Shown piece by piece: positions 3,126 through 34,040 of a stretch of DNA of 64,000 bases. This DNA comes from Streptomyces sp. NBC_00190 (GTDB taxonomy: Bacteria > Actinomycetota > Actinomycetes > Streptomycetales > Streptomycetaceae): assembly GCF_036203305.1 (NCBI RefSeq), contig NZ_CP108131.1, forward strand, positions 5,642,001-5,706,000. The letters run 5' to 3'. Positions within the stretch are counted from its first letter, which is position 1; each line of letters opens with the position of its first letter. The translations under genes were made by a program, and so were the position numbers. The notes beneath the pieces are model-generated. The model made no database searches. It saw only the letters and a list, made by a program, of their open reading frames with translations, and was not told the DNA's origin.

Positions 3126-3908
3126 ATGAATCAGGGCGTGGACCCCCACACCGCTTCCGACGACAAGAGCGACCAGGACAAGAAGGGCCGCCGCCGCTTC
3201 ATGCTGAAGCTGTCGGGCGAAGCCTTCTCCGGTGGCAGAGGACTGGGCGTCGACCCCGACGTCGTCCACGCCATCGCGCGCGAGATCGCCGCGGTGGTCC
3301 GTGACGGCGCGGAGATCGCCGTCGTGATCGGCGGCGGAAACTTCTTCCGCGGCGCCGAACTCCAGCAGCGCGGCATGGACCGGGCCCGGTCCGACTACAT
3401 GGGCATGCTCGGCACGGTCATGAACTGCCTCGCTCTCCAGGACTTCCTGGAGAAGGAGGGCATCGACTCCCGCGTGCAGACCGCCATCACCATGGGCCAG
3501 GTCGCGGAGCCGTACATCCCGCTGCGCGCCGTGCGGCACCTGGAGAAGGGCCGCGTCGTCATCTTCGGCGCCGGCATGGGCATGCCGTACTTCTCCACCG
3601 ACACCACGGCCGCCCAGCGCGCCCTGGAGATCGACGCCGAGGCCCTGCTCATGGGCAAGAACGGTGTCGACGGGGTCTACGACTCCGACCCGAAGAAGAA
3701 CCCCGACGCGGTGAAGTTCGACGCGCTGGAGTACGGAGAGGTCCTCTCCCGCGACCTCAAGGTCGCGGACGCGACCGCCATCACGCTGTGCCGTGACAAC
3801 AAGCTGCCGATCCTCGTCTTCGAGCTGCTCGCCGAGGGCAATATCGCGCGCGCCGTCAAGGGTGAGAAGATCGGCACGCTCGTCAGCGACCAGGGAACCC
3901 GGGCCTGA
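3126..3908 (+). CDS. pyrH: UMP kinase
   Basis: Phosphorylates UMP to UDP in pyrimidine nucleotide synthesis, in the cytosol. The 260-residue product belongs to the amino acid kinase fold: LKLSGEA near residue 28, GGGNFFRG (69-76), the [12 protein letters not shown] loop, and [13 protein letters not shown]. The ATG at 3126 was preferred over one at 3108 because GAGGAGA at 3114-3120 lies five bases before it and would fall inside the longer reading. The first 22 residues are charged and lie before the fold. The leader contains a 12-bp hairpin (3052-3098). Confidence 0.96.
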
Positions 3909-31051: not shown

Positions 31052-32671
31052 TCAGGCTGAGGCCGAAGCCGCCGCCCACGGCCAGTCGGCGTCCCGGCCG
31101 CCCTCGATCAGGGACACCATGCGGAAGGCCGCGTCGGTGAGCCCGCCGAAGGTGTGCCGGTTCGCGGAGCCGGACGGCGCGTGGCCCACGCGGTAGCCCG
31201 CCAGGTTCCAGGTGTACACCGGCACCGTCGGCGGCACCTGGGCCGTCGGGTCACCGCCGTAGCCGTAGGAGGCTGCCTGCTCGTCGGTGATGATCAGCAC
31301 CCGGTCGTGGCCGCGGTAGTGCTCCCGCACGGCCTGCGCCGTGTAGGTGCCGCCGAGGTTCCCGAACCGCTCCAGCACCTTCAGTACGGATTCGCCCCGG
31401 CTGTACGGGACCACCTGACTGGTCGAGCCGAACTGCACCAGGTCCGCGTCCTCGGCCCGCAGCGCCAGCGCCGCCCCGAACACGGCCGCCGCGTCCGCCC
31501 GGTTGAGCTTGGAGCGGTCCGACAGCGAGGACCACATCGACCCGGACCGGTCGACGAGGACCAGCGTCCGCCCGGGCAGCGCCGGTACGTTGCCCAGCGA
31601 GTGGCCGAGCGCCCGCTCCAGCGGGTACGCCCAGCGCAGCGAGGGCGCGTGCTGGTAGGCCGCCAGGTAGCGGAAGGGGAACTGCCGCGCCCGGGCCACG
31701 GCCTCCGGGTCGCAGATCCTCAGCCCCACCTGCTCGGCCACCTCGTCCGAGACTCCGGCCTGGTCGAAGTTGCGCAGGTTGCGCAGCAGGGCCATCGCAC
31801 CCATCGACGGGATGACCGCCTCCCAGGCGGCCGCGTCCATGGGCCCCTGCAGCCAGCCGGCCAGCGCCTCCCAGGTCATGCCCGCCTCCGCGAGCCGCTC
31901 GGCGCCGTCCGGGGCGAGCACCACACCGCGCCGCTCGGAGACCGGCAGCGCCATCAGGGCCCGGTGGGCCGCCAGGGTGCGGTTGCCCGCCGGGACCTCC
32001 GCGCTCTCCGGGTGGTGCCTGCGGTCGAGGGCGTAGCGGAACAGCTCGCCCTGCCAGGCCTTGGCCGGGTCGGGGGAGGCGTGCACGAGGTTGAGGACGT
32101 CACCGAACCGGTAGCCCTTCGAGTCGGTGTCGTACTTCAGCAGCGAGGTGCCGGAGTAGAGCCTGCGTACGGCGTCGGCGATGCCGCGCTTGACGGGCTT
32201 GGGCACGTTGCGCCCGTACGTCGCCGTCCAGTAGGCCAGCAGCTCACCGGGCTCGTCCGCGCGCCGCAGCACGGAGTCCACGACCTGCCGGTTCGAAGGC
32301 CCGTCGGTGGCGCCGGCGTCGAGCCGGGCCCGGACGTACTCGGCGGCGCCGACGAGTGAGGCGGTCCGCATGTTCGCGTCCCCGCGGAGCCAGCCCAGCA
32401 GGCCGGCGGTCCACGCGGGGTCGTCGACCGCGAGCCGCCGCACGAGGGCGCCGAAGCGGTCGTCGCGGTCTTCGCCGCTCTCGTAGGAGGTCTGCTGCGT
32501 CACGAAGTTGGCGACGGCGAGCAGGAACAGCTCGGAGCGCGCATCGCGTTCGTGACCCGGTCCGCCCTCGTGGGTGCGGGTGCGGCGGGTCGAGCGCACG
32601 GGCGAAGCCGGCCGAGAGGCGGACGCGGGCGCGGACGTGGACGCGGACGAGCGCAGGTTGAAACGAGCCAT
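31052..32671 (-). CDS. Ro60-like TROVE domain protein (Y-RNA-binding)
   Basis: The 539-residue protein is a bacterial orthologue of Ro60/Rsr, a ring-shaped RNA-binding protein that binds Y RNAs and assists RNA quality control and decay. Residues 1-40 are Ser/Ala/Arg-rich. Residues 45-350 form the helical TROVE repeat region (FLLAVANFVTQQTSYES, LLKYDTDSKGYRFGDVLNLV, MALLRNLRNFDQAG). Residues 368-515 form a von Willebrand A domain with an intact metal site D374-x-S376-x-S378. The ATG at 32671 follows GGGGGAA. Three Y-RNA-like units lie directly upstream on the same strand. Confidence 0.9.
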   Translation of the reverse strand: MARFNLRSSASTSAPASASRPASPVRSTRRTRTHEGGPGHERDARSELFLLAVANFVTQQTSYESGEDRDDRFGALVRRLAVDDPAWTAGLLGWLRGDANMRTASLVGAAEYVRARLDAGATDGPSNRQVVDSVLRRADEPGELLAYWTATYGRNVPKPVKRGIADAVRRLYSGTSLLKYDTDSKGYRFGDVLNLVHASPDPAKAWQGELFRYALDRRHHPESAEVPAGNRTLAAHRALMALPVSERRGVVLAPDGAERLAEAGMTWEALAGWLQGPMDAAAWEAVIPSMGAMALLRNLRNFDQAGVSDEVAEQVGLRICDPEAVARARQFPFRYLAAYQHAPSLRWAYPLERALGHSLGNVPALPGRTLVLVDRSGSMWSSLSDRSKLNRADAAAVFGAALALRAEDADLVQFGSTSQVVPYSRGESVLKVLERFGNLGGTYTAQAVREHYRGHDRVLIITDEQAASYGYGGDPTAQVPPTVPVYTWNLAGYRVGHAPSGSANRHTFGGLTDAAFRMVSLIEGGRDADWPWAAASASA

Positions 32672-32718
32672 GGTGAATTCCCCCGAATTCAAAGGACGCG
32701 GGGGAGGCGTGACGTGAG

Positions 32719-32853
32719 GGATGCCCGAGATCGAAGTCGGCGACGGACTGTGTCGACTGCTCTGCCAAGCTGAGCTACCGGCCGTGGCCGGGCGGGATTC
32801 GAACCCGCGACCCGTTGATCCGGAAGTAACCGCTGCCTGCGCACCGGGCATCC
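32719..32853 (-). ncRNA. Y-RNA-like gene 3, with tRNA-like module
   Basis: Read on the minus strand, GGATGCCCG (32853-32845) pairs with CGGGCATCC (32727-32719) to close the RNA. The shared motif GGTGCGCAGG follows the 5' strand, and ATCT precedes the 3' strand. Inside lies a tRNA-like module in permuted order. The T arm has stem GCGGG/CCCGC and loop TTCGAAT (32808-32792). An acceptor-like stem CCGGCC-AC-GGCCGG follows (32791-32778). Then come TA and a D arm with stem GCTC/GAGC and loop AGCTTGGCA (32775-32759). Confidence 0.85.
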
Positions 32854-32864
32854 CCCACGTACGG

Positions 32865-32936
32865 CCTCCCGAGATCAAGGTGGCGGCGGCCTGGTGTCTT
32901 TGCAAAAGAAGGAGCCGCTGCCTGCGCACCGGGAGG
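32865..32936 (-). ncRNA. Y-RNA-like gene 2, short form without tRNA-like module
   Basis: CCTCCCG (32936-32930) pairs with CGGGAGG (32871-32865). The same GGTGCGCAGG motif and a GATCT before the 3' strand mark it as a copy of the Y-RNA lower stem. The middle is only a short hairpin, TCTTT-TGC-AAAGA (32909-32897), with no T or D arm. It resembles a minimal Y RNA. Confidence 0.78.
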
Positions 32937-32949
32937 TGCGTGACGTAGG

Positions 32950-33085
32950 TGTCCAGAGAACAAGGTCGGCGAAACCACGTGGTGCTCTGCCGACTGAGCT
33001 ACACCGGCTTGACGCCGGTGACGGGACTCGAACCCGCGACCGCCCCATTAACAGTGGAAGTAGGTCTCACCTGCGCACCTGGACA
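32950..33085 (-). ncRNA. Y-RNA-like gene 1, with tRNA-like module
   Basis: TGTCCAG (33085-33079) pairs with CTGGACA (32956-32950). GGTGCGCAGG follows the 5' strand and TTCT precedes the 3' strand. The permuted tRNA module is complete. The T arm has stem GCGGG/CCCGT and loop TTCGAGT (33037-33021). A perfect 7-bp acceptor-like stem CACCGGC/GCCGGTG is closed by GTCAA (33020-33002). TA follows, then a D arm with stem GCTC/GAGC and loop AGTCGGCA (32999-32984). Confidence 0.88.
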
Positions 33086-33097: not shown

Positions 33098-33125
33098 GGC
33101 GCCGGGTCCGGCCGCCGCCACGCAA

Positions 33126-33341
33126 TTACCTCCCGGTCGGACCGTGGCCGCCATCAGCGGCGTCGGCACCATGACCTCGCCGTCGGCGCCCCCGCGCGAC
33201 AGCGGGACCCGGATGAGCCCGACCATCCGCGGGCGTGCCGACCCGTGGGCCCCGCCCGCGCTCGCGCACCATGAGTACGCAGCCGTCCCGGATGATCACG
33301 GCTGCCACCCGCCGCCGCTCCGTCACGCGCCGCTCCGTCAC
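33126..33341 (-). pseudogene. Truncated Nudix hydrolase gene
   Basis: The frame starts at GTG 33341, overlapping the NADAR stop as GTGA. It reads RRRVAAVIIRDGCVLMVRE, the typical first strands of a Nudix domain. After about 30 residues it turns into arginine- and glycine-rich sequence and stops at 33126 without any Nudix box (G-x5-E-x7-REUxEE). The other two frames do not continue the domain either. It looks like a gene cut short next to the Y-RNA array. Confidence 0.55.
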
Positions 33342-33892
33342 GCGCCGTCCGCGCGCAGCCGGTCCCGGGCCTCCATCAGGGCGAAGCCCAGCAGGTTCAA
33401 GCCGCGCCAGCGGGCCGGGTCCAGGGCGCGCTCGTCGTCGGCCGGCAGCCCGATGCCCCAGATCCGGTCCATCGGGCTGGCCTCCACCAGCACCCGGTTC
33501 CCGGTGGACAGCAGGTACGAGCGCAGCGCCGGGTCGGAGGCGAACTTGTGCACGCTGCCCTCCACCACGAGCGCGAACCGCTCCCGCTCCCAGATCGCGT
33601 CGTCGAAGCCGCGCACGAGCCGCCCGGCCTTCTTCGCCTCGGCCGGAGTGGCCGCCTCGAGCGCGGCGCGCTCGGCCTCCGCGTCCTGGAACAGGCGGGC
33701 CTTCCCGGCCATCATCCAGTGCTCAGCCGTGGCATATCGGACATCACCCACAGTGAAGGCGGACGGCCACCACTGGCTGAGGCAGCTCGGCCCGAGCGTC
33801 CCGTCGGGCCGCGGGCGGTGCCCCCAGAACGGCAGGAACTTCACCCGCTCACCGTGGCTGACCTGCTTGATCAGCTTGTCGATCATTTCCAT
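33338..33892 (-). CDS. NADAR family protein
   Basis: The 184-residue protein has the NADAR (YbiA-like) signature: FWGH near the start, CLSQWWPSAFTV, YATAEHWMMAGKARLF, and late ILVEASPMDRIWGIGL-type sequence (here VLVEASPMDRIWGIGLPADD), then RGLNLLGFALMEAR. Members act as glycosidases on riboflavin intermediates or on ADP-ribose-linked bases. The start at 33892 (MEMIDKLIKQV) is the best of several; the frame is open to 33982. Its stop overlaps the start of a Nudix-like stub, and NADAR and Nudix domains are frequent partners. Confidence 0.85.
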   Translation of the reverse strand: MEMIDKLIKQVSHGERVKFLPFWGHRPRPDGTLGPSCLSQWWPSAFTVGDVRYATAEHWMMAGKARLFQDAEAERAALEAATPAEAKKAGRLVRGFDDAIWERERFALVVEGSVHKFASDPALRSYLLSTGNRVLVEASPMDRIWGIGLPADDERALDPARWRGLNLLGFALMEARDRLRADGA

Positions 33893-34040
33893 GCACGCGA
33901 GTCTGACAGTCGCCACTGACACTTCGTACGGGATTTCGGGTGTGCCTCGACACATGGTCGACCGATTCCGTCGCGTAATCAAAAGGCAACAACGGAATCA
34001 CTTGGCCGAGGGGATGTCCTCTGTCAGGATCGGCACTCAA

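Follow-up and report, generated by a model that had tools for sequence, protein, structure and literature searches.

Three Y-RNA-like units, two of them with permuted tRNA-like heads, precede a Ro60 gene in Streptomyces

Introduction

Among the described systems closest to the locus studied here is that of Salmonella, in which yrlB and yrlA lie beside rsr; there is the same Ro60 neighbour, more than one Y RNA and, in YrlA (Rfam RF02553), a permuted tRNA-like head. The circular permutation of Salmonella YrlA has already been reported (PDB 6CU1), as set out in the available part of PMC11472068. In Deinococcus radiodurans, one hairpin in the head of the Y RNA resembles a T-arm (PMC6181284, available part), and in vertebrates Ro60 binds the lower stem of the Y RNAs, with its bulges (PMC4726728, available part). 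A foot and tether model of Y RNAs is put forward in the excerpts available from PMC8394870, PMC7790460 and PMC6181284.

We have analysed a 64,000-nucleotide stretch of Streptomyces sp. NBC_00190 (C1:5642001-5706000; hereafter the window), in which three Y-RNA-like genes had been predicted upstream of a gene for a Ro60 protein. The Y RNA identity of these units is supported by our data, but the original prediction had missed the tRNA-like domain, which is their most informative part. Beyond that first reading we describe permuted heads, an anticodon-arm-like hairpin in one unit (U1), type switching in another (U3), stand-alone units and a lead to an origin at a tRNA-Asn junction. In the open-access literature, covered chiefly through titles and the openings of abstracts, we found no report of head switching, of a U1-like anticodon arm or of stand-alone Y RNAs.

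Results

Anatomy of the array

The array runs on the minus strand from 33085 to about 32712, upstream of the TROVE/Ro60 gene. The features are as follows.

33127-33117 and 33097-33092, minus strand: promoter-like pair, AATTGCGTGGC and TAACGT, ending 6 nt before U1
32950-33085, minus strand: U1, 136 nt, with a permuted tRNA-like head and an anticodon-arm-like hairpin
33043-33059, minus strand: anticodon-arm-like hairpin of U1, UUCCA-CUGUUAA-UGGGG
32863-32938, minus strand: U2, a short Y-RNA-like unit of about 70 nt without a tRNA-like head
32712-32860 (core 32719-32853), minus strand: U3, YrlA-like, core of 135 nt, stem extending to 16 pairs
32674-32691, minus strand: leader hairpin TGAATTC-GGGG-GAATTCA, whose loop holds a Shine-Dalgarno-like run, a few nt upstream of the start of Ro60
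31052-32671, minus strand: Ro60/TROVE protein gene, 539 aa, with a Pfam TROVE match

Every element of the predicted arrangement, three minus-strand units of one plan directly before the TROVE/Ro60 gene, could be located by coordinate. The plan common to the three comprises a closing stem, GGTGCGCAGG, an upper stem, a CTACTTC-like motif, (A/T)TCT and the 3' strand. In all three units GGTGCGCAGG follows the 5' strand, its first G being the last base of the stem, and GTTCT or GATCT stands before every 3' closing strand. In U1, TGTCCAG (33085-33079) pairs with CTGGACA (32956-32950); in U2, CCTCCCG (32936-32930) pairs with CGGGAGG (32871-32865); and in U3, GGATGCCCG (32853-32845) pairs with CGGGCATCC, whose 3' end lies at 32719. 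Each closing stem is perfect and encloses the internal-loop site common to U1, U2 and U3, which confirms the earlier claim that the stems are fully complementary though their sequences differ between units. The 9-pair stem of U3 lengthens to 16 pairs (about 32860-32712) if G-U pairs are counted by script. Spacers between units are 12 and 10 nt in the window, with a median of 11 nt among loci, and the Ro60 start at 32671 lies 47 nt past the 9-pair stem of U3.

The Ro60 protein scores above the cut-off for Pfam TROVE (PF05731, 52.6 bits against 23), and it is related to the TROVE proteins 9l5y/9kop of the PDB (E 1.2e-26). Against the NCBIfam Rsr equivalog NF041674 it reaches 19.3 bits, short of the cut-off of 900, and it is far from the Deinococcus-type Rsr. 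Neither RtcB nor RtcA was among the six neighbouring proteins scanned, and the single RtcB match in the genome, at C1:4569011, is about 1.1 Mb from the window. The core of the leader hairpin, G[AG]ATTC-G4/5-G[AG]ATTC, was present in the last 40 nt before the start at 74 of 79 loci, counted without a shuffle control. Its 7-pair form was read by script in 46 of 81 leaders, one of which (L076) has another hairpin. From its variants, G-U and paired, the element seems to belong to the RNA rather than to the DNA.

Other features of the genome were noted in passing. A NADAR-domain gene lies upstream of the array (33338-33982), its match to the NCBIfam anti-phage NADAR family being far below the cut-off, and a putative frame-broken Nudix-like remnant, seen by eye, lies between it and the array (region 33100-33982). 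Elsewhere in the window, 44518-44623 matches the Rfam Streptomyces sRNA Scr5676 at 70.6 bits. The genome also holds a second Ro60 gene, preceded by a short U2-type unit scoring 56.2 bits (L152 567-645; G000:C1:682066-682144); the U1 and U3 models gave no match of note in this paralogue stretch, and the start of the paralogue may be a CTG upstream of its first ATG. A similar paralogue arrangement, with a U2-type unit at 41.8 bits, is found in G023 (L167).

Relation to known RNA families

The original prediction had proposed a covariance-model search against bacterial Y-RNA families. U3 matches Rfam YrlA (RF02553) at 57.7 bits (E 2.3e-12) and U1 matches it at 35.8 bits (E 4.9e-6, over 32981-33044), but neither reaches the gathering score of 69 bits, and U2 matched no Y RNA family in the Rfam search. 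Given scores below the gathering score, we class U1 and U3 as YrlA-like by sequence rather than as members of RF02553. The features of bacterial Y RNAs that are present include the Ro60 neighbour, a long closing stem with a conserved internal loop and, in U1 and U3 but not in U2, a tRNA-like domain.

ARAGORN called a tRNA-Arg(ccg) at 32784-32850, which we rejected as a functional tRNA; the called stretch comprises the 5' foot and 3' half of U3 and agrees with YrlA. The Rfam tRNA model scores 27 and 20.3 bits there, under its 29, and gene finders may annotate such Y RNA units as tRNAs. Rfam matches to TB6Cs1H1, Plastid-psbl-rps4, mascRNA and Scr1601 (E 0.78-7.9) were treated as chance.

Conservation and layout

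A genome-contig scan found 209 loci encoding a relative of the window's Ro60, and the best 80 of the 209 were used with the window, making 81. The 80 come from Streptomyces, one being named [Kitasatospora] papulosa, and the set describes the closest relatives. Units were extracted by a rough script, thinned at 93% similarity and aligned, yielding alignments A1 (22 of 59 U1 units), A2 (36 of 70 U2 units; 37 after thinning, one odd unit being removed by hand) and A3 (42 of 67 U3 units; 45 after thinning, those of L059, L061 and L077 being removed by hand). Covariance models for U1 (R2), U2 (R1) and U3 (R3) were built from these alignments and used to search the window, the 80 loci and the paralogue stretch L152, with thresholds placed at chosen score gaps (at least 104.9, 72.1 and 107.2 bits, respectively). 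The window's own units, which are among the model-building rows, score 148.3 (U1), 91.7 (U2) and 137 bits (U3).

Across the 81 loci, U1 is present in 60, U2 in 72 and U3 in 71. The three-member array had been thought unusual, but U1-U2-U3 proved to be the commonest layout, found in 46 of the 81 loci (the window plus the best 80 of 209), followed by U2-U3 (20), U1-U2 (6), U1-U3 (5), U1 alone (3) and none (1). At least one unit precedes Ro60 in 80 of 81 loci, the exception (L053) being a contig that begins at the gene; with the YrlA matches of U3 and U1 and the co-occurrence with TROVE given below, this bears out the prediction of Y-RNA-like units before Ro60. At four loci (L032, L036, L072 and L081, within 3746-3792) all that is left of U2 is a 36-37-nt hairpin with the stem and the two sides of the loop; since these relics retain only the foot, it is the foot that is kept where the head is lost. 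By eye, L049 (about 3680-3740, upstream of U2) has what appears to be a U1 shrunk to a short hairpin behind a promoter-like motif, and the U3 of L077 (1647-1840) is 194 nt long, with a repeat-containing insertion in its acceptor/D-arm region.

Support for the folds

Folded as single sequences, U1, U2 and U3 give z-scores of -3.15, -1.99 and -1.80, those of U2 and U3 being weak alone. In the alignments, both sides have changed in 19 of 38 pairs in U3, 9 of 39 in U1 and 4 of 18 in U2, and the covariation scores (0.274, 0.145 and 0.049, respectively) were reached by 0 of 500 shuffles in each alignment. The measure termed 'further standard pair types' was reached by 0 of 500 shuffles for U3, 9 for U1 and 95 for U2. 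Paired cells amount to 96.5% (U3), 98.6% (U1) and 98.9% (U2) against 28-58% for slid controls, a comparison that favours the RNAalifold consensus structures because they derive from the same alignments. The compensatory evidence claimed for the closing stems holds between units and, across species, for the foot helix of U3 (5 of 11 pairs covary), but not for the closing stems of U1 and U2, in which no pair has both sides changed across the species alignments. Overall, pairing changes across species support all three predicted folds, that of U2 least.

Permuted tRNA heads and the anticodon-arm-like hairpin of U1

On their predicted folds, the heads of U1 and U3 are circularly permuted tRNA. In U3 the order is the 3' half (anticodon-stem strand, variable region and T-arm), an acceptor hairpin, the D-arm and the other anticodon-stem strand, and it is the anticodon stem that links head to foot. 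The acceptor hairpin loops are mostly 3-7 nt, being longer in a few U3 units (e.g. L004, L006, L016 and L025). The T-loop reads TTCRA in all units read correctly by script, and the D-loop GG is present in 58 of 58 readable U1 and 70 of 71 U3 units.

U1 shares the arms of U3 and adds a complete anticodon-arm-like hairpin, found in 55 of 60 U1 units by a relaxed pattern. Within these 55, C32, U33 and A38 are invariant, U36 is present in 53, position 37 is A in 44, C in 10 and G in 1, and the pair equivalent to 30-40 is always complementary (42 C-G, 13 G-C). The remaining five comprise L013, which has the arm by eye, L012, with a 6-nt loop, and L008, L025 and L078, without the arm. On the Ro60 tree, the 55 units require 15 changes at position 34, 13 at 35, 1 at 36 and 8 at 37, and the freest acceptor-loop positions show up to 7 changes in 24 units and 6 in 15. 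Since these rates are about equal, positions 34 and 35 appear to vary freely rather than fast. No one donor tRNA stood out for U1, the highest scores being spread among Met, His, Asp, Gly, Thr and other tRNAs.

In another genome of the genus, two tandem tRNA-Asn genes align with positions 27-104 of the U1 model, scoring 59.1 bits and leaving every base pair intact; the permuted head is made up there by the 3' portion of the first tRNA, a short spacer and the 5' portion of the second. The window's genome also has a tandem tRNA-Asn pair (L119). The fit to the U1 model suggests that the permuted head may stem from a tandem tRNA gene junction, and it speaks to the plausibility of such an origin, not to descent.

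Switching of the U3 head

Types assigned from the D-arm pattern (by eye in L055) divide the 71 U3 units into 46 generic, 18 Leu-like and 7 initiator-Met-like. Comparison with 63 distinct tRNA sequences from the window's genome, out of 80 places (a few not included), gave D-arm scores that agree with these types among the matches listed. The D-arms of L052 and L061 are identical to that of tRNA-Leu(CAG) at 21 of 21 and 25 of 27 positions, and that of L017 matches the initiator-like tRNA-Met in 25 of 27 columns. Among the matches listed, the 3' half of Leu-like U3 units scores best with Gly, Ser, Glu, Cys and other tRNAs, not with tRNA-Leu. The variable region is longer in 13 of the 18 Leu-like heads, and all 12 long regions read by script hold a hairpin of 5-7 pairs with differing sequences (no shuffle control). 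Capture of a whole tRNA from one donor is not supported by these scores, as the D-arm and 3' half match different tRNAs best, both in these units and in the Glu-like stand-alone units described below.

A quick Ro60 protein tree of 81 rows, with stars on 22 of its 78 inner branches, requires no fewer than 15 changes among the three types. When each type is considered by itself, the minimum imposed by the starred branches alone is 13 changes for the generic type, 6 for the Leu-like type with a long arm and 5 for the initiator-Met-like type; the last shows no clustering on the tree at all, its 7 rows needing 7 changes, a number as low in 500 of 500 shuffles. We compared six hand-picked sister pairs of unlike type with Ro60 DNA 91-96% identical, leaving out L008/L025. 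Outside the U3 head, identity is 92% in U2, 87% in the leader, and 91% and 85% in the 5' and 3' stems of U3, whereas within the head it falls to 44% in the variable segment and 58% in the D-arm segment, with 84% in the T-arm plus acceptor. Six hand-picked pairs of like type show 94-99% identity over five U3 segments. Judged from these sequences, the type changes appear to fit best with recombination among lineages, and independent capture would also be compatible. Between close relatives with otherwise similar loci it is the tRNA identity that changes, the foot and the tRNA elbow staying constant.

Stand-alone units and distribution

Across 199 genomes of the genus, TROVE (E 1e-8) was found in 95 and a U1-type match (E 1e-15, with stricter filters) in 77; 74 have both, 21 have TROVE alone and 3 (G513, G572 and G581) have the U1-type match alone. 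We chose 21 U1-type matches far from TROVE by eye, without a systematic rule, and all 21 were re-found. No Ro60 was detected near 19 of them by tblastn with the window's protein (E 1e-3, 3-7 kb around); L228 (G572) and L232 (G513) have Ro60 fragments nearby. The D-arm matches tRNA-Glu best in 16 of the 21, and in 12 of those 16 the 3' half matches tRNA-Cys best. The foot covaries (pair 4-140 is G-C in 6, C-G in 5, U-A in 3 and U-G in 2), 15 of 17 units (not L217 or L220) are followed by a strong G+C-rich hairpin, seen by eye and without a clear U run, and 12 of 17 are immediately preceded by a promoter-like pair found by pattern. The window's genome has only the operon U1 at E 1e-15 and no stand-alone U1-type unit. 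Such units suggest that Y RNAs can also be encoded away from ro60.

In 396 sampled genomes of the phylum, 11 have TROVE and 13 have U3-model matches (E 1e-4, stricter filters), three of them weak at 46-48 bits. For the 12 listed genomes of the genus in this sample, a U3 match of at least 108 bits occurs in 8 of 8 with TROVE and 0 of 4 without, three of the latter having only 46-48-bit matches. We rejected those weak matches as Y RNAs; in both of the two genomes checked out of three, they are a tandem tRNA-Asn pair. Outside the genus, three genomes have TROVE, and Y-RNA-like units precede it in two (G050 and G339), with two units by model at L161 and one by model, more by eye, at L162. In the third, G199, TROVE lies near a contig start and no Y-RNA model match was found.

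Promoter-like signals

A pattern drawn up after inspecting upstream sequences precedes the first unit at 52 of 78 loci (with a spacer of 20 nt in 46 and 19 nt in 6), leaving 26 first units without it, and it occurs before 0 of 115 later units and in 0 of 1560 shuffles. A simple sigma-70/terminator scan of the window returned no promoter site and no terminator. Because the promoter-like pair stands only before the first unit and the spacers between units are short, the array probably forms one transcript; the three genes of the original prediction are present as units but are better read as a single, putatively polycistronic unit.

Discussion

We consider it very probable that the locus is a Y RNA-Ro60 operon whose precursor is processed into Y RNAs with a shared foot and with differing heads that tether or gate. 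The single transcript, its processing, Ro60 binding and the tethering or gating are steps that we infer, with binding, processing and tethering argued by analogy. One promoter probably drives a precursor made up of the three Y RNAs and the Ro60 mRNA, from which processing would free the Y RNAs; no processing site was identified in the window. Each Y RNA has a presumed Ro60-binding foot, consisting of the closing stem and the GGUGCGCAGG / UUGAUCU internal loop, and with the same foot one Ro60 could carry three different heads. The heads of U1 and U3 would be permuted tRNA, mimicking the elbow, and that of U2 a plain stem-loop. By analogy with Deinococcus and Salmonella, PNPase or a similar effector, or else a tRNA-acting enzyme, would be held at Ro60 by the head, which would also gate the Ro60 cavity, and the short U2, lacking such a head, would act as a gate or a competitor. 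How far the PNPase mechanism carries over is uncertain because Ro60 here is distant from the Deinococcus-type Rsr. Against this reading stand the Rfam scores below the gathering score, the failure of U2 to match a Y RNA family, the 26 of 78 first units that lack the promoter pattern, and the 21 of 95 TROVE genomes of the genus that lack a U1-type match at E 1e-15 (a U1 search only; 20 of 81 loci lack U1 but have U2 and U3). The operon layout is also not universal, given that many stand-alone units come with promoter-like and terminator-like signals of their own.

The differing heads could also be understood in other ways. They might serve mainly as decoys or sensors for tRNA-targeting nucleases or modifying enzymes, with Ro60 holding or presenting them and switching reflecting changing attackers. 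Such a role would suit both the switching of U3 D-arms between generic, Leu-like and initiator-Met-like forms (at least 15 changes) and the anticodon arm of U1, in which C32, U33 and A38 are retained, U36 almost always so, and positions 34 and 35 are variable (15 and 13 changes, against 1 at 36), and a competitive-inhibitor role for YrlA is raised in the available part of PMC7790460. However, changes at 34 and 35 are about as frequent as at the freest positions of the acceptor loop, as would be expected of neutral drift; there is no anticodon loop in U3, and no U1 arm in L008, L025 and L078; and in the same excerpt of PMC7790460 no fragments of YrlA are reported, so that the nuclease in question leaves YrlA uncut. 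We regard this explanation as unlikely. A wider scheme would combine a Ro60-binding foot with exchangeable heads that arose at tandem tRNA junctions, have changed identity again and again (with generic, initiator-Met-like and Glu-like D-arms, and Leu-like ones accompanied by a class-II-like variable arm), also occur as stand-alone units and act as baits or decoys for tRNA-acting enzymes. We think this doubtful, though worth keeping in mind, and it is made less likely because anticodon-like positions change no faster than free loop positions.

Two further explanations were weighed. The array could be a long structured leader of the Ro60 mRNA acting only in cis, e.g. as an autoregulatory Ro60-binding site, as might be suggested by the 47 nt that separate the last unit from the start codon, by spacers with no room for promoters of their own and by the conserved Shine-Dalgarno hairpin, but full tRNA-like heads would be unnecessary in cis and similar units are found away from Ro60, which leaves such a leader very unlikely. 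Permuted tRNA genes that give functional tRNAs are known from algae, and they are defined by a linker permitting maturation of both ends and by a CCA end. The order of 3' half, short linker and 5' half, together with the anticodon loop of U1, recalls such genes; yet the acceptor strands are closed by loops mostly of 3-7 nt that would leave no room for a CCA end, U3 has no anticodon, and the conserved foot is unrelated to tRNA, so that processing of these units to functional tRNAs is scarcely credible. The processed Y RNA-Ro60 operon is the reading that we prefer. Should its heads be exchangeable adaptors, the parts that a Y RNA needs could be read from a natural comparison within Streptomyces, and the binding partner of the tRNA-like domain would become directly testable.

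Set beside known systems, the locus differs from that of Salmonella in having three units, not two, in the anticodon-arm-like hairpin that U1 adds and in a U3 head whose type switches between species. Unlike the rsr-yrlBA-rtcBA RNA repair operon, RtcB is not adjacent here. In the Deinococcus radiodurans Y RNA/Rsr/PNPase complex (RYPER) the Ro60 ring binds the Y RNA stem, as we presume it does here, but the Ro60 of the window is a distant relative. The Ro60 site here presumably resembles that of vertebrate Y RNAs in sequence, and to our knowledge those RNAs have no tRNA-like head. tmRNA is likewise a tRNA mimic, in which a long helix replaces the anticodon arm, whereas the units described here have no mRNA-like part and no acceptor end, and carry their arms in a different order.
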